DNA from: Tellurirhabdus bombi
Lineage (GTDB): Bacteria > Bacteroidota > Bacteroidia > Cytophagales > Spirosomataceae
Direction: 5' to 3'
Length of the DNA stretch: 64,000 nucleotides
NCBI RefSeq assembly: GCF_021484805.1
Contig: NZ_CP090557.1
Span: 918,501 to 982,500 of the forward strand
The translations under genes and the position numbers were made by a program. This document shows, in pieces, positions 8,488 through 46,904 of this stretch. A model generated the notes under the pieces. It saw only the letters and a program-made list of their open reading frames with translations, did not search any database and had not been told where the DNA came from. The first letter of the stretch is position 1. Every line of letters starts with the position of its first letter.

Positions 8488-9204
8488 TTAATGAACTGCT
8501 TCGAGCTCCCGTTCGGCTTTTTTGCTTTTCTGGCGATCCTGGAAACGCAACAGAATCCGATTCTTCAGACGCATCCAGCGCTCATAAAGCCGCGACTCTT
8601 TCAGGAAATTCCACTTTTCGGGCTTCGTTTCCTTTTGTCCTTTATGTTCTTCGGGATCAAACTGCATGCCTGTACACAAACAATGCTTGCGATTTGTCCT
8701 ATTTAAAATATCGTAATTTACGCAGCTTGAGCAGCCTTTCCAGAACGCGTCATCGCCGGGTAGTTCCGTCAACGGCACAGGAATATACCCCAGATCCGAG
8801 TTGATTTTCATCACAGCCAGACTGGTTGTCAGGCCAATGATTTTTGCATCGGGGTATTTTTTCCGGGAAAGCTTGAACGCTTCGTGCTTAATCCGGGTAG
8901 CAATGCCACTTTTGCGGTGATCCGGATGAACAATGAGTCCAGAATTAGCTACAAACTTACCGTGCTCCCACGTTTCGATGTAGCAAAAACCAACCCATTC
9001 GCCCATTTTTGTCTTAGCAATAATGGCTTTCCCTTCCAGCATTTTTTCCATCAAATAGAGCGGAGAGCGCTTAGCAATACCCGTTCCACGAGCTTTAGCG
9101 CTGTTTTCCATCTCCTTACAAATAGTGTCGGCCAGTGTTAGATGGTCTTCATTGGCAACCTGAACTATATAAATATCGTTTTTGTCTACTGAGTTCATCG
9201 TCAT
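8488..9204 (-). CDS. GNAT acyltransferase next to argGC; candidate N-acylglutamate synthase
   Basis: GNAT-fold protein (core about residues 10-150). LIVHPDHRKSGIATRIKHEAF is motif A for acyl-CoA binding, and GLTTSLAVMKINSDLGY is motif B. Unusually, a C-terminal extension holds a CxxC...CxC cluster (GCSSCVNYD, KHCLCTGMQ) and a very basic tail. No argA or argJ is visible nearby. I recall that in Bacteroides a GNAT protein at this place in the arginine cluster has been linked genetically to the first acylation of glutamate, so that role is plausible here but is inference. The start is the ATG at 9204; others at 9198 and 9249 are possible. Confidence 0.75.
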   Translation of the reverse strand: MTMNSVDKNDIYIVQVANEDHLTLADTICKEMENSAKARGTGIAKRSPLYLMEKMLEGKAIIAKTKMGEWVGFCYIETWEHGKFVANSGLIVHPDHRKSGIATRIKHEAFKLSRKKYPDAKIIGLTTSLAVMKINSDLGYIPVPLTELPGDDAFWKGCSSCVNYDILNRTNRKHCLCTGMQFDPEEHKGQKETKPEKWNFLKESRLYERWMRLKNRILLRFQDRQKSKKAERELEAVH

Positions 9205-38586: not shown

Positions 38587-39429
38587 TTAAGTAAACTGCT
38601 TCGCTTCCTGCCAATACACCTCCATCTCTTCCAGCGTCATGTCTTTCAATTGCTTACCGGCCTGCCGCGCCTGCTCTTCCAGGTACTGAAAACGCTTGAT
38701 GAATTTTTTATTGGTGCGCTCCAAAGCGGTTTCTGGGTTGATATCAATAAATCGGGCGTAGTTAACCAGTGAAAACAGCACATCGCCAAATTCTTTTTCC
38801 GCCCGGTTCTGGTCGATTGCCTCGCCCGTATCGACGTTGAATTCCTGCTTAAATTCCTGCATCTCCTCCTCAACCTTTTCCCATACCTGTTCCTTCTCCT
38901 CCCAGTCGAAACCGGCTCCACGCGCCTTCTCCTGAATGCGCATCGCTTTCACCAGAGCGGGCAGCGAACCCGGCACCCCACCTAAAACCGACTTGTTGCC
39001 TTCTTTTAGTTTGAGCTGCTCCCAGTTTTGTTTCACCTGTTCTTCCGTCTCTGCCTTGGTATCGGCGTAGATATGCGGGTGTCGGCGAATCAGCTTCTCA
39101 CAAATGCCGTTCAGAACGTCGGCAATATCAAACCGCACCGCTGGATCAGTAGCAGGCTCGGAGCCGATCCGGGCGTAGAAAACCAGATGGAGCAAAATAT
39201 CACCCAGTTCTTTCCGAACTTCGGTCAGGTTGCCTTCCAGAATGGCGTCCGAAAGCTCGTAGGTTTCTTCAATGGTTAAATGGCGCAGACTATCCATCGT
39301 CTGTTTCCGATCCCAGGGGCATTGCTCACGCAATTCATCCATAATGGTCAGCAGGCGATCAAAAGCCAGCAGTTGTTCCTGCCGCCGCGCGGGCATCTGC
39401 TCTATCTGTTGTTTCAGGGTCGTATCCAT
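38587..39429 (-). CDS. mazG: Nucleoside triphosphate pyrophosphohydrolase MazG
   Basis: 280 residues with two MazG modules: CPWDRKQTMDSLRHLTIEETYELSDAI (E-x-x-E/D metal sites) and EKEFGDVLFSLVNYARF. It hydrolyses NTPs to NMPs plus pyrophosphate, including abnormal nucleotides. The start at 39429 gives MDTTLKQQIEQMPARRQEQ, a usual opening. The gene is divergent from the XrtN locus. Confidence 0.95.
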   Translation of the reverse strand: MDTTLKQQIEQMPARRQEQLLAFDRLLTIMDELREQCPWDRKQTMDSLRHLTIEETYELSDAILEGNLTEVRKELGDILLHLVFYARIGSEPATDPAVRFDIADVLNGICEKLIRRHPHIYADTKAETEEQVKQNWEQLKLKEGNKSVLGGVPGSLPALVKAMRIQEKARGAGFDWEEKEQVWEKVEEEMQEFKQEFNVDTGEAIDQNRAEKEFGDVLFSLVNYARFIDINPETALERTNKKFIKRFQYLEEQARQAGKQLKDMTLEEMEVYWQEAKQFT

Positions 39430-39445
39430 CCAAAGTGATTTTCTA

Positions 39446-39453
39446 CAAAGTTA
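39446..39453 (-). promoter_or_regulatory. -7 box of mazG
   Basis: TAACTTTG on the minus strand (39453-39446), 16 nt before the mazG ATG. No -33 TTG was found. Confidence 0.35.
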
Positions 39454-39568
39454 CGAAGAGGCAGGAAGCCTTTGCTTCTTCGGAGACCAGAAGTTGTGAT
39501 TATGTTAGTTACCTAAATTTTTTGACTAAAATTTAACGATCGCTTGACAAGGCCATTTATTTTCTGTT

Positions 39569-39587
39569 TACTTTGCAATACAAAGTA
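39569..39587. promoter_or_regulatory. Palindromic site upstream of the DUF1361 gene
   Basis: TACTTTG-CAATA-CAAAGTA, perfect 7-bp arms with a 5-nt spacer, then CTTT. Located 7 nt before the ATG at 39595. A near-identical site occurs at 41787-41805, which suggests a shared regulator. Confidence 0.55.
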
Positions 39588-39594
39588 CTTTATC

Positions 39595-40266
39595 ATGAAT
39601 ACACTTGTAGCTTCCAAACGCTCCGGCGAAGGCTTGCGGTTCCTCCTGCTGCTTTCGGGCATGAGTATGACGATGTTAGTCGCCCGCTGCTTGCTCACCC
39701 AGGATTTCTATTTTAAATTACTAAGCTGGAATCTGTTCCTAGCCTGGATTCCTCTTATGTTAGTTTTGGCCATGCGGCAGGCATCCGAGCGAGGCTGGCT
39801 CCCGGCGGGCGCACTTTGGGCGGGGCTTGCGGGTTGGCTGCTGTTTTTGCCCAACGCGCCGTACATCATCACGGATCTTTTTCACGTCCGGTCTGTGAGC
39901 GAGCAAACGCTGTGGTTTGACACCATGATGATTTTTCTTTTCGCGCTGACAGGCTTGCTGGCTGGTTTATACTCCCAATTACTCGTCCATCGCTTGCTGA
40001 ACGAACGCTTCGGACGCCGCCTGACCTGGCTGGCCATGCTGGCTTGTCTGGTGCTGACAAGTTTCGGGATTTATCTAGGGCGTTATGGCCGGTGGAACAG
40101 CTGGGATTTAGTGACTGATCCGCTCGCGCTAACGACGGCCATTATAACTAGTTTTCGAGATCCTGTTGCCCTGAAGTTGACCCTTTCGTATACCTTTGCG
40201 TTGGTGGTACTTTATGTTGGTTTCGTAGAGTATGTTCAACGCCATACGCATGAATCCCTGGATTGA
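39595..40266 (+). CDS. DUF1361 membrane protein, first gene of the XrtN locus
   Basis: 223 residues with about six membrane segments, e.g. GLRFLLLLSGMSMTMLVARCLL, LFLAWIPLMLVLAMR and WLAMLACLVLTSFGIYLG. Family features are WNLFLAWIP, LPNAPYIITDLFH and GIYLGRYGRWNSWDL, matching DUF1361. Its function is unknown. The ATG at 39595 is used; the longer frame begins with TTG at 39544. A palindrome overlaps its promoter region. The kinase gene begins 17 nt inside its 3' end, so the two are likely coupled. Confidence 0.8.
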   Translation: MNTLVASKRSGEGLRFLLLLSGMSMTMLVARCLLTQDFYFKLLSWNLFLAWIPLMLVLAMRQASERGWLPAGALWAGLAGWLLFLPNAPYIITDLFHVRSVSEQTLWFDTMMIFLFALTGLLAGLYSQLLVHRLLNERFGRRLTWLAMLACLVLTSFGIYLGRYGRWNSWDLVTDPLALTTAIITSFRDPVALKLTLSYTFALVVLYVGFVEYVQRHTHESLD

Positions 40267-40642
40267 TATTCGAAAAAATCTGCGCAGTTTTCGGTTCGCC
40301 TTTGCGGGTATACACGCGCTCTTTCGCTACGAAAACAACGCTAAAATTCATTTATTGGCGGCTTTTGCCGTGGTGTTTATCAGCTTTTGGCTGGATTTAA
40401 CCCGGGCAGAATGGGCAATTATTCTCACCCAGATCGGGTTGGTCTGGATGGCAGAAGCGTTCAATACGGCGGTGGAAAAGCTGGCCGATGTGGCATCGCC
40501 GGACTACCACCCGCAGATTAAAGCAGTAAAAGATATTTCGGCGGGGGCCGTGCTGCTCGTCGTTCTGGTTGCGGTTGTGGTCGGCCTCCTGATTCTGGGA
40601 GAAAAACTTTGGTTCTTAATCACTCATTTGCTTATTCATTAA
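40250..40642 (+). CDS. Small integral-membrane lipid kinase (DgkA/undecaprenol kinase type)
   Basis: 130 residues, three membrane helices. Signature residues: FRFAFAGIHALFRYENNAKIH, WMAEAFNTAVEKLADV (the E-x-x-N-T-x-x-E catalytic stretch) and KDISAGAVLLVV. Members phosphorylate diacylglycerol or undecaprenol. It lies within the XrtN locus and overlaps the DUF1361 gene, so co-expression is likely. Which lipid it uses here is not known. Confidence 0.85.
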   Translation: MNPWIDIRKNLRSFRFAFAGIHALFRYENNAKIHLLAAFAVVFISFWLDLTRAEWAIILTQIGLVWMAEAFNTAVEKLADVASPDYHPQIKAVKDISAGAVLLVVLVAVVVGLLILGEKLWFLITHLLIH

Positions 40643-40655
40643 TTTACGCTTGTTC

Positions 40656-41327
40656 ATGTCGCGCGAACATTTAGAGACGTTAACCGAAATTCGGAGCCTG
40701 ATGGAACGCTCCTCGAAATTTTTTTCGTTGAGTGGTTTATCGGGCGTTTCGGCAGGGATTATTGCGCTAATTGGGGCGGGGGCCGCTTACGTTCGCTTTC
40801 AAAAAGATGATTTGCTAGCGGCTTATAATCAGCCCTCTGTTCTGAGCAGCGATGACCTCTACCAGCATGTAGGCACCATGACCGGTGCAGAACGGTACGA
40901 AGCCGTACAGTTTGTTGTCCTGGATGGTGTGCTGGTGTTAATAGCGGCTTTAGCAGCGGGTATTTTTTTCACGGTCCGAAAGGCCCGGCGGCAAGGCATG
41001 AGCGTCTGGAATCCAACGTCACGGCGGTTGCTCTGGGCAATGGCAGTGCCGCTGGTGGCGGGCGGCATTCTCTGCTTATCGCTGATTCACTACAACCTGA
41101 TTTGGCTGGTCTTTCCGTCAACCCTGATTTTCTACGGGCTGGCCCTGTTCAATGGCAGCAAATACACGGTTCGTGACGTAGAATACCTGGGCTTATCCGA
41201 AATTGCGCTGGGCCTGCTGGCTTTATTTCTGTCTGGGTATACGCTCCTGACGTGGGCAATTGGCTTTGGCCTTTTGCACATCGTTTACGGAACAGTCATG
41301 TATTACAAATACGATAAATCGCTCTAA
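40656..41327 (+). CDS. Five-helix membrane protein upstream of the HTH_34 regulator
   Basis: 223 residues, no family recognised with certainty. Hydrophobic segments at about 25-50, 80-105, 125-145, 150-170 and 185-215 (e.g. SAGIIALIGAGAAYV, LLWAMAVPLVAGGILCLSLI). The conserved SREHLETLTEIRSLMERSSKF opening is soluble. Proteins like this commonly sit beside HTH_34 regulators in Bacteroidota, so it could be a sensor or a target. The ATG at 40656 lies 13 nt after the kinase stop. Confidence 0.65.
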   Translation: MSREHLETLTEIRSLMERSSKFFSLSGLSGVSAGIIALIGAGAAYVRFQKDDLLAAYNQPSVLSSDDLYQHVGTMTGAERYEAVQFVVLDGVLVLIAALAAGIFFTVRKARRQGMSVWNPTSRRLLWAMAVPLVAGGILCLSLIHYNLIWLVFPSTLIFYGLALFNGSKYTVRDVEYLGLSEIALGLLALFLSGYTLLTWAIGFGLLHIVYGTVMYYKYDKSL

Positions 41328-41399
41328 ATCACGGCGCATTTGCGGCACACACCGCAGCAAGTAGCTGCTGGTAAGTCAGTTGCGCGTGAGCAATGATCT

Positions 41400-41699
41400 A
41401 TGCGGGAGTTTTTGATAGGATTTAATAAGGCTTTTGAAAGCAAGGCTCGGCTAGGTATTATGTCGGTGCTGATGGTAAACGATTCCCTGAGTTTTAATAC
41501 GCTCAAAGAATTACTTACCCTCACTGATGGCAACCTGGCTACGCACCTACGCGCGCTGGAAGAGCAAAAATACCTTAATGTTCAGAAGCAATTTGTTGGC
41601 CGTAAGCCGAATACTACATACTCGGCTACGGACGAAGGAAAAAAAGCATTCACCGACCACCTGAATGCACTGGAGGATTTTCTGAAAGGGTCGATCTAG
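41400..41699 (+). CDS. HTH_34 winged-helix transcriptional regulator
   Basis: 99 residues, one winged-helix domain: SKARLGIMSVLMVNDSLSFNTLKELLTLTDGN is helix 1 to the HTH, NLATHLRALEEQKYLNVQKQFVGRKPNTTYSATDEGKKAF the recognition helix and wing. Such proteins act as dimeric DNA-binding repressors. It lies between the two promoters that carry the TACTTTG palindrome and is a good candidate to bind them. The binding link is inference. Confidence 0.82.
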   Translation: MREFLIGFNKAFESKARLGIMSVLMVNDSLSFNTLKELLTLTDGNLATHLRALEEQKYLNVQKQFVGRKPNTTYSATDEGKKAFTDHLNALEDFLKGSI

Positions 41700-41786
41700 T
41701 TAACTGATTTGTTTATGGCTATGCCTACCGGCCTTTACCGGTGCTCTTTGCCCAGAACTATACCTGTCTGTTTTATTTTGCTTATT

Positions 41787-41805
41787 TACTTTGAAAAACA
41801 AAGTA
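41787..41805. promoter_or_regulatory. Palindromic site upstream of the VIT gene
   Basis: TACTTTG-AAAAA-CAAAGTA, perfect 7-bp arms with a 5-nt spacer and a following CTTT, 8 nt before the ATG at 41814. It shares arms, spacer length and flanks with the site at 39569-39587. Confidence 0.55.
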
Positions 41806-41813
41806 CTTTCAAT

Positions 41814-44471
41814 ATGGATAATTTTCTAACTAACCTTACATCCAGTTCGGCATCTACCAGCCCTAAGGGCTCTGTTCCGCCCGCAGCAGGCTTGTTTCAG
41901 TTAACCGACCAGACACCGAGCTGGCTGCGGCCTTTTAAAGAGCCCCTGTTTCGCACTGGTTTTTTCCTGGTCGTAATCATGGCCCTTATCCATGGCGCCT
42001 ATACGTATTACGCCCTCCAAACGGCGTCCTCTTTACACATGGAGATCTTTTTTCTTCACTATGCGGCCGCTGCTTTCTATGGCTTGTCACTGTTGTCCAA
42101 AGGGTATCTGGTTGGTAAACGCAGGCAGGAAGGCCGCCCCCTGCGCCTGTTGTTATGGGTGCTTTTTCTAATGAGCTGCTTTGCTCTGAATCGGGAGATG
42201 CACATTTTTCAGGAGGCGGTTACCTGGTTTTCTATAGCGTTGGTTCTCGCTTCAGCCCTTTTTATTGCTTCCACCTGGATCGATTATTTCTCGGTCCGGG
42301 GTCAGCAAGTGGTTCTCTTTGGCCTTGCCGCCGCCTGGTGGCTTTTTGCTTACCAAGCCATTTATTTGACCACAACTTATATGGTGGGTATTCTGGGTTC
42401 GCTGCTCCTGGGCGTTTCAATTCATGCCTACATTCCGCTTTTCATTACGATCGATCTTTTTTCCTTCTTGCGCAAGGGCTGGCGGGAGAACGAGCACTAC
42501 CGCCCCGCCCTCCTGCTGGGTTCTTTGTTACCGCTGCTTCTAACAGGTTATTTTCTCGTGCGCTGGCATCAGGTCAATACAAAAATCAAGTTTACGCTCA
42601 ATGAGATACAGGCCCGCCGCGATGATGAATTGCCCGCCTGGGCCTTACTGGGTCAGCAACTTCAGCCCGATTGGGTGACCGAACGCCTGCTTAAAACGGG
42701 CAGTTTCTACGATCAGGCAAATCCACGCCTGAGCTGGGACGTATTCAGTAGAGGTCTTGAGGTAAAGCAGCACGATCCATTTGTTATTATCGCTTCCCGC
42801 TTTATTCCGCCCACCACCTTATCAGGTACGGAAACCACTAAGCTGCTTAATATTCTCTACGATGCCCGCCACCAACTGGAAGAGCGGCTGTGGTCGGGGC
42901 AAACCCTGCAAACCAGCAATGTCCTGTCTCAGGTGCGAATTTACCCGGAATACCGACTGGCTTATACCGAAAAAACCATCCAAATCCAGAATAATGAACA
43001 GTCCCAGTGGCGCTCCCCGCAGGAGGCGATCTATACGTTTTATTTGCCCGCCGGATCGGTTGTAACGTCTTTATCCCTGTGGGTAAATGGCCGGGAAGAA
43101 AGGGGCGCGCTGACTACGCAGGCCAAAGCCGACACGGCATATCACACGATTGTTGGCGTAGAGTCAAGACAGGTAGTCCGCGACCCATCGCTGGTGCGCT
43201 GGCAGGAAGGCAACCGCATTACCGTGCGCGTGTTCCCTTGCCCGCCGCGTGGAATGCGCCAGTTTAAGATTGGCATTACCAGTCCGCTGACGTACCAGAG
43301 TGATCGGCTTATCTACGAAAACCCCTTGTTTGATGGGCCAAACGGAACCGATGCTACTGAAACCGTGCGCCTCGATTTTACGCAGCAACCTACTGATTTA
43401 CTACTTCCTAAGTTTCTTCAACCAAGCCTATTTGACGATCAGCCTCGTACTAATCAGTATACCAAACACACGGATTACCAGCCGTACTGGGAAATCAGCA
43501 TGGCGGCCCCTCCGCTTAAGACGGCTGGTTTTACGTTTGCCAACAGCACCTACCAGATTGAGCCAATTCAGTACCAAAACGAAGCTTTTGATCCCAAAGC
43601 GCTCTACCTGGACATAAACGAATCGTGGACGGCTGACGAAATCAAAAAAGTTCTCCAAGGTGCGAACAACCGACCCGTTTGGGTATATGACGAAGGTTTG
43701 CGACTTCTGACCGCTGAGAACCAGGAGGCGCTTATTGAGCAATTGCGTAAACAACGGTTCAGTTTATTTCCTGTCTACCAGATACCGGCTCCCGAAGAAA
43801 GCGTGCTCCTCACGAAAGCCAGTCAGCCAGGACCTCAGTTAGACGATTTAGCCACCAGTTCATTTGCCGATCAGTTGGGTAAATCCGCCGCTGACCGCGC
43901 CCCGCTCCGTACCTTTTGCCTGTCGGCAGAGCCATCTGCACTGGTCAAAACCTTAAGCGAATTGCACGTATTGCGAACCGAATACGGCTCCGTCAATCAG
44001 TTGGTTGACCAATTGAAAATTAAGCGTTTCAGCCCGAACAGAAATACGGATAACACAATCTATCTGGAAAAATCAGGCGTTTTGATTCGCCGAAAAACTG
44101 CTTCTGCTGCATCTTCCCAACAGGCTTCCGTTGCCCCCGATCATTTGCTTCGGCTGTTTGCCTACAATCATCTTTTGCACCAGATTGGTCGCCAGTACTT
44201 TAACCGCTCTTTTCTCACGCCTCCCCTGATTGCAGAAGCGCAGCAAGCCAACGTAGTCTCGCCGCTGTCCAGTTTAGTGGTGTTGGAAACCCAGAAAGAC
44301 TACGACCGCTTTGGCATCAAACGCCAGCCGGACGGGCTGGGCAACGCAACCCTGAAAAACGAAGGTGCCGTGCCCGAACCGCACGAATGGGCCCTGCTGG
44401 TGGTGGCCGCACTTTGGGTTCTTTACACCATCCGACAAAAAGCCGCCCGCCGCACCCATGCCAGCAACTGA
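41814..44471 (+). CDS. XrtN system VIT-domain protein with VPEP sorting signal
   Basis: 885 residues. The N-terminal third holds multiple membrane segments (e.g. FFLVVIMALIHGAYTYYAL, VVLFGLAAAWWLFAYQAIYL); a VIT domain lies at about residues 370-490 (VRIYPEYRLAYTEKTIQIQ, YTFYLPAGSVVTSLSLWVNG, VRVFPCPPRGMRQFKIGI). The tail is VPEP (Pro-Glu-Pro at 854-856) followed by a hydrophobic stretch and RQKAARR, the layout of an exosortase-sorted protein. I recall this family as the dedicated substrate of exosortase N. The start at 41814 lies just after the palindrome. Confidence 0.88.
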   Translation: MDNFLTNLTSSSASTSPKGSVPPAAGLFQLTDQTPSWLRPFKEPLFRTGFFLVVIMALIHGAYTYYALQTASSLHMEIFFLHYAAAAFYGLSLLSKGYLVGKRRQEGRPLRLLLWVLFLMSCFALNREMHIFQEAVTWFSIALVLASALFIASTWIDYFSVRGQQVVLFGLAAAWWLFAYQAIYLTTTYMVGILGSLLLGVSIHAYIPLFITIDLFSFLRKGWRENEHYRPALLLGSLLPLLLTGYFLVRWHQVNTKIKFTLNEIQARRDDELPAWALLGQQLQPDWVTERLLKTGSFYDQANPRLSWDVFSRGLEVKQHDPFVIIASRFIPPTTLSGTETTKLLNILYDARHQLEERLWSGQTLQTSNVLSQVRIYPEYRLAYTEKTIQIQNNEQSQWRSPQEAIYTFYLPAGSVVTSLSLWVNGREERGALTTQAKADTAYHTIVGVESRQVVRDPSLVRWQEGNRITVRVFPCPPRGMRQFKIGITSPLTYQSDRLIYENPLFDGPNGTDATETVRLDFTQQPTDLLLPKFLQPSLFDDQPRTNQYTKHTDYQPYWEISMAAPPLKTAGFTFANSTYQIEPIQYQNEAFDPKALYLDINESWTADEIKKVLQGANNRPVWVYDEGLRLLTAENQEALIEQLRKQRFSLFPVYQIPAPEESVLLTKASQPGPQLDDLATSSFADQLGKSAADRAPLRTFCLSAEPSALVKTLSELHVLRTEYGSVNQLVDQLKIKRFSPNRNTDNTIYLEKSGVLIRRKTASAASSQQASVAPDHLLRLFAYNHLLHQIGRQYFNRSFLTPPLIAEAQQANVVSPLSSLVVLETQKDYDRFGIKRQPDGLGNATLKNEGAVPEPHEWALLVVAALWVLYTIRQKAARRTHASN

Positions 44472-45540
44472 TCTAACCTTCTGGCTGGGTTTGGCCCTGG
44501 CCGCTTACGTCCTGCTTACACCGGCCCGGCAGCGCTGGGTCGGGATGCTGGCTGCCCTGGTGGTCACTTCGCCAATGCTACGCTGGGCGGCAGCCCTGTT
44601 TAGCTTTCCCATTCGGCTGGAACTGAGTCGGTGGGCTGGCCATATTCTGTGCCTGGGCGGAGCCAACGCCCAGGTTTACGGAAATATCATTCGGTTTAAC
44701 GGGACCGATTTTTCCGTAGATCCGGCCTGCATGGGCGTGCAGATGACCGGCTTGTCTTTACTGGCTGGCCTGTTTCTGATTATTCATACCGAAAATCAGA
44801 CAAAACGCCGCCTGACAGCGCCGGGCTTGCTGCTGGCTTTTCTGGGTTTGGTTACGTTTACCATCGCTGCTAACCTCGTCCGGATTTTAGCCTTGGTGCT
44901 GTTTCACGTCTTGCCTGATAATCCACTGCACGATGTAGTTGGATTGAGCTGCTGGCTCCTTTACGTGGCTTTGCCGCTGAATTGGAGTATTGCGGTGCTG
45001 TATCGGTGCTTTTCCCGACCTATTGCCGAGCGGCCTGCCACAAAAAAATGGCTCATGGCTCCGATTGCGTTATGTGGTTTATGTCTGGCCGGATTTGCAC
45101 TAAGCCCCAAGAAAGAAGCTATGGAAGCAGGGCTTTTGCCATCCATGCGGGGCTATACCCAGAAATACCTTCAAAATGGTTTTGTCCAATACAGCAAACC
45201 CGGTGTGCTCGTTTACGCCAAGCCTATCGCTACCCCGTGGACCCTTGAACACAGCCCGTACAATTGCTGGCGGGGCAGTGGGTATGAATTTGCTTTTGTT
45301 CAGGAACGACAGCTGGCCAGTCATTCGATTTACGCCGGAACCCTGCGGCACGGAAAAAATCGAATGCATACAGCCTGGTGGTTTACCGATGGATTGACAC
45401 TAACAACCAGCCAGTTAGAAACCCGCTGGCAAATGATCCGCGATAATCGACCTTCCGTTTTGATTAACGTAACCGTCGAAAATCCGTCGGTTATGCCGGA
45501 AGTCCTCGACGAGTGGCGCACGTTCAGGCCACAGCCTTAG
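44458..45540 (+). CDS. xrtN: Exosortase N (XrtN) with EpsI-like C-terminal domain
   Basis: 360 residues, overlapping the VIT gene by 14 nt. The exosortase catalytic triad is visible: Cys91 in VDPACMGVQMTG, Arg142 in NLVRILALVLF and His158 in NPLHDVVG, set between membrane helices. The C-terminal third (about residues 215-360) is outside the membrane and has EHSPYNCWRGSGYEF and MHTAWWFTDG, resembling the EpsI/DUF3485 domain found with other exosortases. It should cut and process the VIT protein tail; the product is then attached to an unknown surface polymer. Confidence 0.88.
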   Translation: MPATDLTFWLGLALAAYVLLTPARQRWVGMLAALVVTSPMLRWAAALFSFPIRLELSRWAGHILCLGGANAQVYGNIIRFNGTDFSVDPACMGVQMTGLSLLAGLFLIIHTENQTKRRLTAPGLLLAFLGLVTFTIAANLVRILALVLFHVLPDNPLHDVVGLSCWLLYVALPLNWSIAVLYRCFSRPIAERPATKKWLMAPIALCGLCLAGFALSPKKEAMEAGLLPSMRGYTQKYLQNGFVQYSKPGVLVYAKPIATPWTLEHSPYNCWRGSGYEFAFVQERQLASHSIYAGTLRHGKNRMHTAWWFTDGLTLTTSQLETRWQMIRDNRPSVLINVTVENPSVMPEVLDEWRTFRPQP

Positions 45541-45619
45541 CTCACAAATCTAAGTAGTTGCGAAAAATTAAATTAAACTATCCGTAGGCTCAATATGCTG
45601 AGAACTGACTAGTTATTCG

Positions 45620-45655
45620 CTCATTCACTCAATCTCTCATTCACACATTCACTAA
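45620..45655. repeat. TCATTCAC-type repeat (GARYGAAA family)
   Basis: CTCATTCACTCAATCTCTC and CATTCACACATTCAC before the first Crp/Fnr gene. Read on the minus strand this is GAGTGAATGAGCGAA-like, similar to the elements near 11.8 and 17.8 kb. Confidence 0.45.
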
Positions 45656-45659
45656 CATT

Positions 45660-46253
45660 ATGAAAACATTACACACAGAAAAAGAAGCACTAAAAAAAGC
45701 CATATTTGGCTGGCAACTTCTATCGGAAGAGGTCTGGAATGATTTTTTTACCTGCTGGCAACCCGTGACCTACAAACGAAAAGCCATTCTGACAGAAGCC
45801 GGTGAAACGGAGCGATACCTGTATTTTGTGCTTGATGGCGTGCAGCGTGCCTATTCGCTCAACGAGGGCCAGCGCGAAACGACGCTCCTTTTTACGTCTG
45901 AGGGTTCTTTTTCGGGTATTGCCGATTCGTTTCAGTTGCAACAACCTTCCCGCTATTACCTTGAAACCGTAACGCCCAGCCGTCTGCTTCGCCTGGCTTA
46001 CTCCGACTTTGCCCGTCTGAGTGCCCTGCACCCGTCGCTCGAACGTTGGGGGCGCATTGCCACCGCCCGAACGCTTTCCGGACTCATGGAATGGCATATG
46101 GAACTGATGACGCGCAGTGCCGAGGACAAATTTCGGGTGCTGCTCACGCGCAATCCGCACGTGTTGCATCAGGTCCCGCACAAGTATTTAGCGTCGTATA
46201 TTGGCCTTTATCCCACAACTTTTAGTAAGCTATTAGCCACGGTTCGGGTCTAG
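45660..46253 (+). CDS. Crp/Fnr-type regulator, paralog 1
   Basis: 197 residues. N-terminal cyclic-nucleotide-binding fold (KRKAILTEAGETERYLYFVLDGVQRAY, FSGIADSF) and a short C-terminal HTH (PHKYLASYIGLYPTTFSKLLATV). It belongs to the Bacteroidota-type Crp family. The cNMP phosphate-binding loop Arg-x-x-Ser of CRP is not preserved, so the ligand may differ or be absent. It is followed 57 nt later by a paralog that is about 70% identical by my hand count. Confidence 0.87.
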   Translation: MKTLHTEKEALKKAIFGWQLLSEEVWNDFFTCWQPVTYKRKAILTEAGETERYLYFVLDGVQRAYSLNEGQRETTLLFTSEGSFSGIADSFQLQQPSRYYLETVTPSRLLRLAYSDFARLSALHPSLERWGRIATARTLSGLMEWHMELMTRSAEDKFRVLLTRNPHVLHQVPHKYLASYIGLYPTTFSKLLATVRV

Positions 46254-46310
46254 TCAGTAAATTTGACAGAATGTCGCTCTCGTTTCATTTTCACCCGCGC
46301 ACTTTCTGTT

Positions 46311-46904
46311 ATGAACTCGCTTCTGGCCGATAAAGAAAAGCTCCGACAAGTCATTTTCAACTGGCAGCCACTCCCGGAGCAGGCGTGGAATGATTTTTCG
46401 GAGTGCTGGCAGCCCGTTGCTTACAAACGGAAAGAAATTCTGACGGCAGCGGGTGAGGTAGAGCGGTATGTTTATTTTGTGCTTGATGGGGTACAACGCG
46501 CCTATGCTTTGCATCAAGGCCAGCGGGAGGCTACCTTGATTTTTTCGTATGCGGGCTCTTTTTCGGGTATTGCCGATTCGTTTCAGTTACAGCGCCCTTC
46601 GCGGTATTACCTCGAAACCCTGACCGCCAGCCGGTTGCTTCGACTGTCCTATACCGATTTTTCGCGTTTGACCGCCCAATATCCTGATCTGGAACGCTGG
46701 GGACGCATTGCCACTGCTTATGGTCTTTCGGGCCTCATGGAACGGTACATTGAACTGCTGACCTACAGCGCCGAAGAAAAATTTCGGGTGTTGCTCAACC
46801 GGAGTCCGCACGTTTTGCAATTAATTCCGCATAAATACCTTGCTTCATACTTAGGTCTAGACCCCACGACGTTTAGTAAACTTCTGTCTTCCGTGAAGTT
46901 ATAG
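46311..46904 (+). CDS. Crp/Fnr-type regulator, paralog 2
   Basis: 197 residues, same length and order as the previous gene: KRKEILTAAGEVERYVYFVLDGVQRAY, FSGIADSF, and HKYLASYLGLDPTTFSKLL. The ATG at 46311 aligns with the start of paralog 1, so the longer frame from 46263 is not used. Tandem duplication with divergence mainly at the N-terminus and around residues 130-155 suggests different partners or DNA sites. Confidence 0.86.
   Translation: MNSLLADKEKLRQVIFNWQPLPEQAWNDFSECWQPVAYKRKEILTAAGEVERYVYFVLDGVQRAYALHQGQREATLIFSYAGSFSGIADSFQLQRPSRYYLETLTASRLLRLSYTDFSRLTAQYPDLERWGRIATAYGLSGLMERYIELLTYSAEEKFRVLLNRSPHVLQLIPHKYLASYLGLDPTTFSKLLSSVKL

Follow-up and report, generated by a model that had tools for sequence, protein, structure and literature searches.

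A shared inverted-repeat operator suggests one regulon for an exosortase N-VIT pair and an HTH_34 membrane-protein cluster in Tellurirhabdus bombi

Here, we propose from sequence analysis that the exosortase N (XrtN)-VIT pair of Tellurirhabdus bombi and a neighbouring four-gene cluster form one regulon, because the same unusual operator fronts both operons and the genome holds no further copy, even with one mismatch allowed. Such exclusive sharing of a control site suggests that a single regulator turns the six genes on or off in concert, and we consider it probable that in T. bombi they make up the entire regulon of a small membrane-protein switch, the winged-helix protein HTH_34 with the membrane protein MP3 as its possible sensor. 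The locus occupies 39595-45540 of the window, the whole 64,000-nt stretch analysed (GCF_021484805.1, NZ_CP090557.1, positions 918,501-982,500). An earlier note on this DNA had placed six genes here in the order given below, and all six open reading frames are confirmed on the + strand:

39570..39591, + strand: operator 1, ACTTTGCAATACAAAGTACTTT, 3 nt short of the DUF1361 start; its left half coincides in part with a Bacteroidota-like -7 element
39595..40266, + strand: DUF1361 membrane protein (PF07099, 154.4 bits)
40250..40642, alternative start 40232, + strand: prokaryotic diacylglycerol/undecaprenol kinase (PF01219 DAGK_prokar, 119 bits)
40656..41327, + strand: MP3, a helical membrane protein of no named family; HTH_34 is next downstream in the loci examined
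41400..41699, + strand: winged-helix regulator HTH_34, the proposed operator-binding protein (PF13601, 100.7 bits against a threshold of 27)
41788..41809, + strand: operator 2, ACTTTGAAAAACAAAGTACTTT, 4 nt short of the VIT start
41814..44471, + strand: XrtN-system VIT protein, 885 aa (TIGR04477, 875 bits against a curated cut-off of 250)
44364..44468, + strand: sorting tail GAVPEPHEWALLVVAALWVLYTIRQKAARRTHASN of the VIT protein; the genome search found no other tail of this kind
44458..45540, + strand: exosortase N, with Cys91/Arg142/His158 and a possibly EpsI-like C-terminal part (TIGR04476, 239 bits; 239.2 against a curated cut-off of 200)

The kinase had been called undecaprenol-type; its family stands, while the match fits undecaprenol or diacylglycerol alike. 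For MP3, neither Pfam nor NCBIfam gave a match at E up to 0.01. Scans of 39400-46000 for sigma-70-type promoters (6 promoter-like sites against 6.0 in shuffles) and for terminators (16 sites against 8.8 in shuffles, those on the + strand lying inside genes) were set aside.

The operator is a common 22-bp site, ACTTTG-N5-CAAAGTACTTT, which forms an inverted repeat (ACTTTG-N5-CAAAGT) and stands immediately upstream of both DUF1361 and VIT. With up to one mismatch allowed, the whole 4.94-Mb genome holds exactly two matches, one per operon, and the reversed pattern has none in the host genome. Neither operator appears in the feature list of the earlier note. Could the common site be a strong promoter or an alternative-sigma element in place of an HTH_34 operator? 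The Bacteroidota -7 promoter element is TAnnTTTG, which the left half resembles in 103 of 147 sites (reading TTACTTTG or TAACTTTG), and in many sites a TTG lies upstream at a distance of 24-26 bases. If the site were a general promoter, it should be common, yet the genome has only two; moreover it forms an inverted repeat and its occurrence tracks that of MP3, and we judge the promoter explanation very unlikely.

The link of the site to MP3 is visible across 390 genomes of the host's order, where the exact site occurs in 215 of the 269 MP3-positive genomes against 2 of the 121 MP3-negative ones, and VIT in 33 MP3-positive genomes against a single MP3-negative one (G078, with no site at VIT). 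The Fisher values, 2e-54 and 5e-5, are overstated, since the genomes are related species and not independent; the genome lists for this order-wide test were entered by hand, and the counts of 269, 173 and 34 agree with the tallies. The exact site is absent from 54 of the 269 MP3-positive genomes, which counts against the regulon model; two of these, G199 and G323, carry one-mismatch variants. Among the 390 genomes, one (G354) showed the reversed pattern; at one mismatch, this pattern also turned up in G199 and G031 among 50 hand-picked genomes.

At VIT, a site was counted when it lay, with up to one mismatch, between 300 bp before and 60 bp after the estimated start. It is present there in 26 of the 34 VIT-positive order genomes and in 54 of the 80 named VIT loci, these being the best 80 of 342; the two sets overlap, 12 of the 80 duplicating order loci. 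All 21 MP3-linked loci (19 distinct) without a site directly at VIT have one immediately after HTH_34 and before a leader gene, at up to two mismatches. Neither VIT nor the leader gene has a site with up to one mismatch in 2 of the 34 order genomes and in 8 of the best 80 loci, which counts against the model; two of those eight loci have a two-mismatch site. In one further VIT locus of each set, the sequence ends at VIT. The exact 10-mer was not found before the inner genes (kinase 0/43, HTH_34 0/82, XrtN 0/111, repeat loci being counted twice). The same operator variant stands at both operons in G199, L143 and L145, and not in L044 and L142; a claim of operator covariation was dropped.

One system or two units? 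The earlier note had treated the six-gene block as one system and had proposed, as a check, whether the other four genes occur with XrtN elsewhere. The outcome, scored by HMM matches to stop-to-stop frames over stretches of up to ~20 kb (some ended by contig ends), is mixed. XrtN is present in 79 of the best 80 of 342 VIT loci, in line with the pairing that the note had described, and MP3-HTH_34 lies inside the locus in 41 of the 80. All six genes stand together in host-like order in 8 of these 80 loci and in the order MP3-HTH_34-VIT-XrtN-kinase-DUF1361 in 5 (L140, L155, L164, L169 and L171, mostly Niastella), with the kinase frame beginning 57, 16 and 26 nt past the XrtN frame in L140, L164 and L171, respectively; L145 also has all six genes, DUF1361 preceding the kinase. 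Their joint occurrence in two gene orders would suit one obligate six-gene machine, in which kinase and DUF1361 provide a lipid acceptor that XrtN joins to VIT, as would the kinase being the host genome's sole PF01219 match and, by analogy, the archaeosortases, which join their substrates to lipid. Against such a machine, which we consider improbable, DUF1361 is missing from the stretch in 65 of the best 80 loci, 14 of 17 VIT-negative genomes inspected (mostly close relatives, picked from MP3 matches) carry DUF1361, kinase, MP3 and HTH_34 together without VIT-XrtN, and in Niastella relatives 11 of 20 loci combine MP3-HTH_34 with kinase and DUF1361 and have no VIT in the stretch. Because the four genes cluster without XrtN in these genomes and loci, the six do not appear to be one obligate machine; what holds of the earlier claim is one regulon, as indicated by the common operator.

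The XrtN-VIT pair is accessory and often occupies the slot after HTH_34. The pair might be a passenger beside a conserved cluster that merely captured the operator of this slot, which elsewhere holds CreD, DUF4153 or small membrane proteins; VIT is also patchy (34 of 390 genomes), and two copies, L051 and L065, look damaged. However, a site is found at 71 of 102 distinct VIT upstream regions, and 36 of the 71 have kept it without MP3 in the same stretch (up to ~20 kb), our definition of an unlinked VIT. MP3 lies ~0.7 Mb from VIT in Larkinella humicola, apparently on the same contig, and on a different contig in Dyadobacter luticola. We therefore think a passenger unlikely and favour membership of the pair in the regulon. 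A search of 19 MP3 loci without VIT, at E up to 0.01, gave no VIT or XrtN remnants. L179, an MP3 locus without VIT, retains the operator with no 60-aa ORF behind it.

The catalytic residues that had been proposed for XrtN, Cys91/Arg142/His158 when numbered from the ATG at 44458 (C92/R143/H159 from base 44455), are invariant in all 31 aligned XrtN sequences, and the 14-nt overlap with VIT is borne out by the VIT stop at 44469-44471. EpsI/DUF3485 (PF11984) is weakly matched by 7 of the 31 at E up to 1 (best 0.0039, host XrtN 0.27). The earlier account also needs correcting in that a second exosortase, XrtY-like, is encoded elsewhere in the host genome. The VIT protein, large at 885 residues and not "giant" as had been written, has N-terminal membrane helices, an ectodomain with the VIT domain (PF08487, 39.1 against a cut-off of 26.5) and a possibly VWA-like part, and the C-terminal VPEP tail, whose PEP comprises residues 854-856, as expected from the Pro854 given before. 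All 30 aligned VIT proteins carry the tail motif G-[AS]-[VIA]-PEP-[HE]-EW with a hydrophobic stretch behind it, and hydrophobic and basic parts are also visible in the VIT protein tails inspected. A search of the whole host genome with the XrtN tail profile, at E up to 10, returned the VIT protein alone, in agreement with the single substrate claimed earlier; the many tailed substrates that mark PEP-CTERM mass sorting were not found by this profile.

The C-terminus of inter-alpha-inhibitor heavy chains is cut and coupled. The predicted structure of the VIT protein (pLDDT 83.5) appears to match heavy chain 1 (6fpy, 6fpz) over the VIT domain and the following alpha/beta part, residues 362-830, with Z 15.1 over 397 residues and an rmsd of 7.7, although the heavy chain is an animal protein with 12% identity and the MIDAS serines lack conservation among the bacterial proteins. 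None of 30 VIT family members matched Pfam VWA at E up to 1, and no DxSxS metal site was found in the alignment, which has D600-x-N602 and a variable position 604; in our reading, D600-x-N602 may be the MIDAS position.

How might the regulon work? An HTH_34 dimer would bind ACTTTG-N5-CAAAGT, overlapping the likely -7 promoter element of its own operon (DUF1361-kinase-MP3-HTH_34) and of VIT-XrtN, and would most likely repress both. MP3, as the constant membrane partner, may relay the condition of the inner membrane and free the repressor, upon which the cell would make the VIT-XrtN pair along with lipid kinase, DUF1361 and additional MP3 and HTH_34. With its VIT-VWA-like ectodomain presumably held in the membrane by the N-terminal helices, the VIT protein would be cut at the VPEP tail by XrtN acting at the outer side of the inner membrane, and its new C-terminus probably transferred to some acceptor. 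The sensor role of MP3 is a guess, because its fold search gave no match at E up to 0.001 (best 0.19), and the site could belong to some other DNA-binding protein.

The host pair resembles the NCBIfam exosortase N and XrtN-system VIT families (TIGR04476, TIGR04477) in passing the cut-offs, in its adjacent overlapping genes and in the one tailed partner found; those family names cover the pair alone, whereas in the present genome the pair and a separate HTH_34 cluster have an operator in common. Around the VIT region there are weak matches to the MSEP-CTERM protein (TIGR04286, 46 bits), which we take to be the exosortase K partner, and to the TIGR02921 PEP protein (25 bits), far under the cut-offs of 150 and 200 and belonging with another exosortase. 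XrtF of Flavobacterium johnsoniae is likewise a Bacteroidota exosortase with an associated neighbour gene, and its mutants lose surface colonisation (PMC10936215); it is of another exosortase family, and the passages cited here mention neither a VIT substrate nor an HTH_34 operator for it (PMC10936215).

The open-access literature that we searched yielded no description of an HTH_34/MP3 operator regulon and no paper on an exosortase with a VIT domain or on PEP-CTERM with inter-alpha-trypsin. For exosortase N, the partner is known, and its signal, regulator and context were not found in that literature. DUF1361 appears there in Staphylococcus work, with nothing on the regulon. The conserved operator and its candidate regulator indicate when to look for XrtN action on VIT, namely when the regulon is induced, and the common site makes the mostly unnamed MP3-HTH_34 pair, with MP3 in 269 of 390 order genomes, experimentally accessible. 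The operator also names other targets, so that function may be approached through CreD-like envelope proteins. More tentatively, and at slightly under an even chance, MP3 and HTH_34 might be an undescribed membrane-coupled one-component switch, common across Bacteroidota, that guards the inner membrane via a palindromic operator with variable outputs (CreD, DUF4153, small membrane proteins, VIT-XrtN); exosortase N would then provide inducible envelope-stress sorting and not constitutive surface export. In a survey of 225 site contexts, which are not independent genomes and include 40 loci chosen for holding a site, the genes downstream mostly encode membrane proteins, CreD and DUF4153 among them, and the few non-membrane targets count against the model. 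In gammaproteobacterial CreBC-CreD, CreD is likewise a regulated inner-membrane protein and is described, in the passages cited, as under two-component control (PMC4689548), whereas the CreD of other genomes here follows the operator described above. In 6 site contexts the operator is followed by a CreD-type cluster, of which one member was scanned.

The six open reading frames on the forward strand of window 39595-45540 bear out the gene order proposed in the earlier note, including the overlap of 14 nt (44458-44471) between the genes for the VIT protein and exosortase N (XrtN). The pairing of these two is already known from NCBIfam names. For the 22-bp inverted repeat found here, which we call the operator, or for an exosortase N within an HTH_34 regulon, we found no description in the mostly open-access literature that was searched.

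Features of the window locus, all genes on the forward strand
39570-39591: operator 1, 22-mer, three bases before the DUF1361 ATG
Gene 1: DUF1361 (PF07099)
Gene 2: DAGK_prokar kinase (PF01219)
Gene 3, 40656-41327: MP3, unnamed membrane protein
Gene 4, 41400-41699: HTH_34 winged-helix regulator (PF13601)
41788-41809: operator 2, 22-mer, four bases before the VIT ATG
Gene 5, 41814-44471: XrtN-system VIT protein (TIGR04477, 875 bits against a cut-off of 250)
Gene 6, 44458-45540: exosortase N (TIGR04476, 239 bits against a cut-off of 200)

Apart from this kinase, PF01219 has no match in the Tellurirhabdus bombi genome. Directly 3' of XrtN lie tandem, apparently duplicated regulators with cyclic-nucleotide-binding domains (45660-46253 and 46308-46904).

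Do the six genes form one system, as had been suggested? They do occur together elsewhere, in two orders, but four of them also occur without VIT-XrtN. The VIT protein scored over the TIGR04477 cut-off in 34 of 390 sampled genomes of the order, and single-protein searches found all six genes close together in 11 of them (the window and loci L044, L050-L055, L058, L060 and L062). Among the best 80 of 342 VIT loci from bacterial genomes (the named loci), scanned with HMMs built from the order's loci, XrtN is matched in 79, MP3 and HTH_34 in 41, never one without the other, DUF1361 in 15 and the kinase in 14. The window's pattern recurs in eight of these best 80 (Spirosoma, Fibrella, Fibrivirga, Emticicia and a Cytophagales MAG), and L140, L155, L164, L169 and L171 have the order MP3-HTH_34-VIT-XrtN-kinase-DUF1361, so that the six genes assemble in two different ways. 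L145 has DUF1361 before the kinase; L142 has DUF1361 after XrtN, in a stretch without the kinase. L140, from a metagenome bin labelled Williamsia (an actinobacterium), holds a Bacteroidota locus, and the label is probably wrong. The XrtN-less exception among the 80 is L151 (11382-15069), despite 3.7 kb behind VIT.

MP3 is present in 269 of the 390 order genomes, against 34 for VIT. DUF1361, kinase, MP3 and HTH_34 are matched in that order in 14 of 17 fetched VIT-negative genomes, the other three being one without a DUF1361 match and two Pontibacter-type genomes with MP3-HTH_34 alone; in two Dyadobacter-type genomes the four-gene cluster is intact and VIT-XrtN lies on a separate contig. Among relatives of Niastella, where 20 of 25 MP3 places were fetched (the remaining five come from three genomes already in the named set), 11 of the 20 have MP3-HTH_34 with kinase and DUF1361 in a stretch without VIT, two have the kinase alone beside MP3-HTH_34 and five have neither; L325 has VIT-XrtN, and L324 the kinase and a weak VIT match. 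The four-gene cluster is thus independent of VIT-XrtN, and VIT-XrtN is an accessory pair, often occupying the slot after HTH_34. This pair travels with the MP3-HTH_34 switch: MP3 is present in 33/34 VIT-positive versus 236/356 VIT-negative order genomes. HTH_34 comes next after MP3 in every locus examined (20/20, 41/41, 20/20 and 20/20). Most MP3 frames are about 220 aa long; those of Dyadobacter-type L193 (5238-6386) and L194 (5399-6511) reach about 370-380 aa, which suggests an added part.

The similarity of stop-to-stop translations before VIT, DUF1361 and a CreD-type gene revealed AAAGTACTTT, and from there the operator pattern, ACTTTG-N5-CAAAGTACTTT. When up to one mismatch is allowed, this pattern matches the whole T. 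bombi genome twice, both times in the window, with three more matches at two mismatches, while the reversed pattern has none; simple arithmetic gives about 0.0006 chance occurrences for the 17 fixed bases. The window and the VIT loci together (4.30 Mb, both strands) contain 177 sites, versus 0 for the reversed pattern. Tandem operators precede one gene in L160 (7300 and 7358), L270 (3980 and 4058) and L256 (704 and 732).

Counting repeated loci twice, the exact 10-mer lies upstream of 29/43 DUF1361, 35/82 MP3 and 61/118 VIT matches, and of 0/43 kinase, 0/82 HTH_34 and 0/111 XrtN matches; among these genes it is confined to operon heads. With at most one mismatch, the 22-mer stands at VIT in 26/34 order genomes and in 54 of the best 80 named loci. 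When distinct VIT upstream regions are each counted once, 71 of 102 have the site, 35 with MP3 in the fetched stretch (up to about 20 kb; linked) and 36 without (unlinked); the 31 site-less regions comprise 19 linked and 12 unlinked. In every linked locus lacking a site at VIT (5 + 16 rows), a site with at most two mismatches lies just behind HTH_34, and the gene that follows this site may head the operon, although in L041, L042 and L104 a distance of 5 kb to VIT makes a single operon less sure. Unlinked VIT genes bear the operator in Larkinella humicola (MP3 about 0.7 Mb away, apparently on the same contig) and Dyadobacter luticola (MP3 on another contig).

The 225 distinct site contexts divide into 78 before VIT, 44 before MP3, 32 before DUF1361 and 63 before other genes; eight have no ORF of 60 aa. 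The 63 other genes encode at least two hydrophobic stretches in 51 cases, one in seven and none in five, and this preponderance of membrane proteins suggests that the operator's targets centre on the inner membrane. One representative per larger cluster was scanned against Pfam; those of the families of about 414, 111, 96 and 162 residues had no Pfam match.

Other operator targets
CreD: cluster of 6 contexts (PF06123, 486 bits)
DUF4153: 6 contexts, two of which share a single gene (PF13687)
Unnamed membrane family, about 414 residues: 11 contexts (L242, L232, L240, L243-L245, L247, L248, L251, L252 and L135)
Single cases: DUF2809; MpaB-like oxygenase; ABC ATPase (by eye)

On the reverse strand of L179, from a VIT-negative genome, an exact operator at 9000 follows HTH_34 but precedes no ORF of 60 aa, and no VIT remnant was found there.

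What binds the operator? Exact sites occur in 215/269 MP3-positive versus 2/121 MP3-negative order genomes, the two being G130 (72% complete) and G172 (86% complete). A hand-chosen test set of 50 genomes comprised 20 picked as MP3-negative, none with an exact site and four with a single one-mismatch site, and 30 others, each with sites of at most one mismatch, exact in 27. Among these 30, G078 is MP3-negative, with neither an exact site nor a site at VIT. The obvious DNA-binding candidate is HTH_34, whose own operon bears the site. In 72/147 sites the left half overlaps TTACTTTG and in 31/147 TAACTTTG, both similar to the Bacteroidota -7 promoter element; many sites have TTG 24-26 bases upstream. 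Binding should then block the promoter, which makes repression the likelier sense.

We propose that the HTH_34 protein would repress two operons, that MP3 may convey the state of the membrane, that release of the repressor would let the lipid kinase, DUF1361 and the VIT-XrtN pair be made, and that XrtN would trim VIT at its PEP motif. Indirect evidence for the regulatory step is good; the putative MP3 sensing, VIT cleavage and acceptor are drawn from protein families. F. johnsoniae mutants in xrtF show that surface colonisation can be affected by an exosortase in Bacteroidota (PMC10936215).

The PEP tail noted for VIT is kept in 30/30 aligned proteins (four of 33 fetched loci, with VIT broken or cut off, were excluded), and the claim of a single substrate holds for XrtN-type tails, as a tail profile run over the T. 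bombi genome at E up to 10 returned only the VIT protein. In the AlphaFold model of VIT (mean pLDDT 83.5), N-terminal helices lie between residues 44 and 267, followed by a beta-rich VIT region and then by an alpha/beta region; the C-terminal helix spans 856-884. Foldseek ranks inter-alpha-inhibitor heavy chain 1 first (E 3.1e-16), and VIA-align fits residues 362-830 to it with Z 15.1 over 397 residues, against Z of about 10 for runner-up proteins; the large rmsd (7.7) suggests that the domains align individually. The alpha/beta region would be VWA-like in this model; Pfam VWA matched none of 30 members, and the aligned proteins do not conserve the MIDAS serines, having D600-x-N602 and a variable position 604 at the presumed metal site. 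Inter-alpha-inhibitor heavy chains are cleaved near the C-terminus and coupled to a glycan, a possible parallel to the proposed C-terminal cut of VIT.

The catalytic Cys/Arg/His of XrtN proved invariant in 31/31 aligned proteins. Its C-terminal part, where the same alignment shows further invariant residues (His, Cys and Trp), is weakly like EpsI/DUF3485 (7/31 members match, best E 0.0039). A second exosortase-like protein is encoded elsewhere in the genome:

C1:3579569-3579826 (L272:1444-2025), reverse strand: exosortase-like protein, 193 aa, closest family XrtY (130 bits, under the cut-off of 160)

In L051 (8282-10939) and L065 (7804-10364) the VIT genes are apparently damaged, one by an in-frame TAG and one split over two frames; the reading frame of the adjoining XrtN is open in both.
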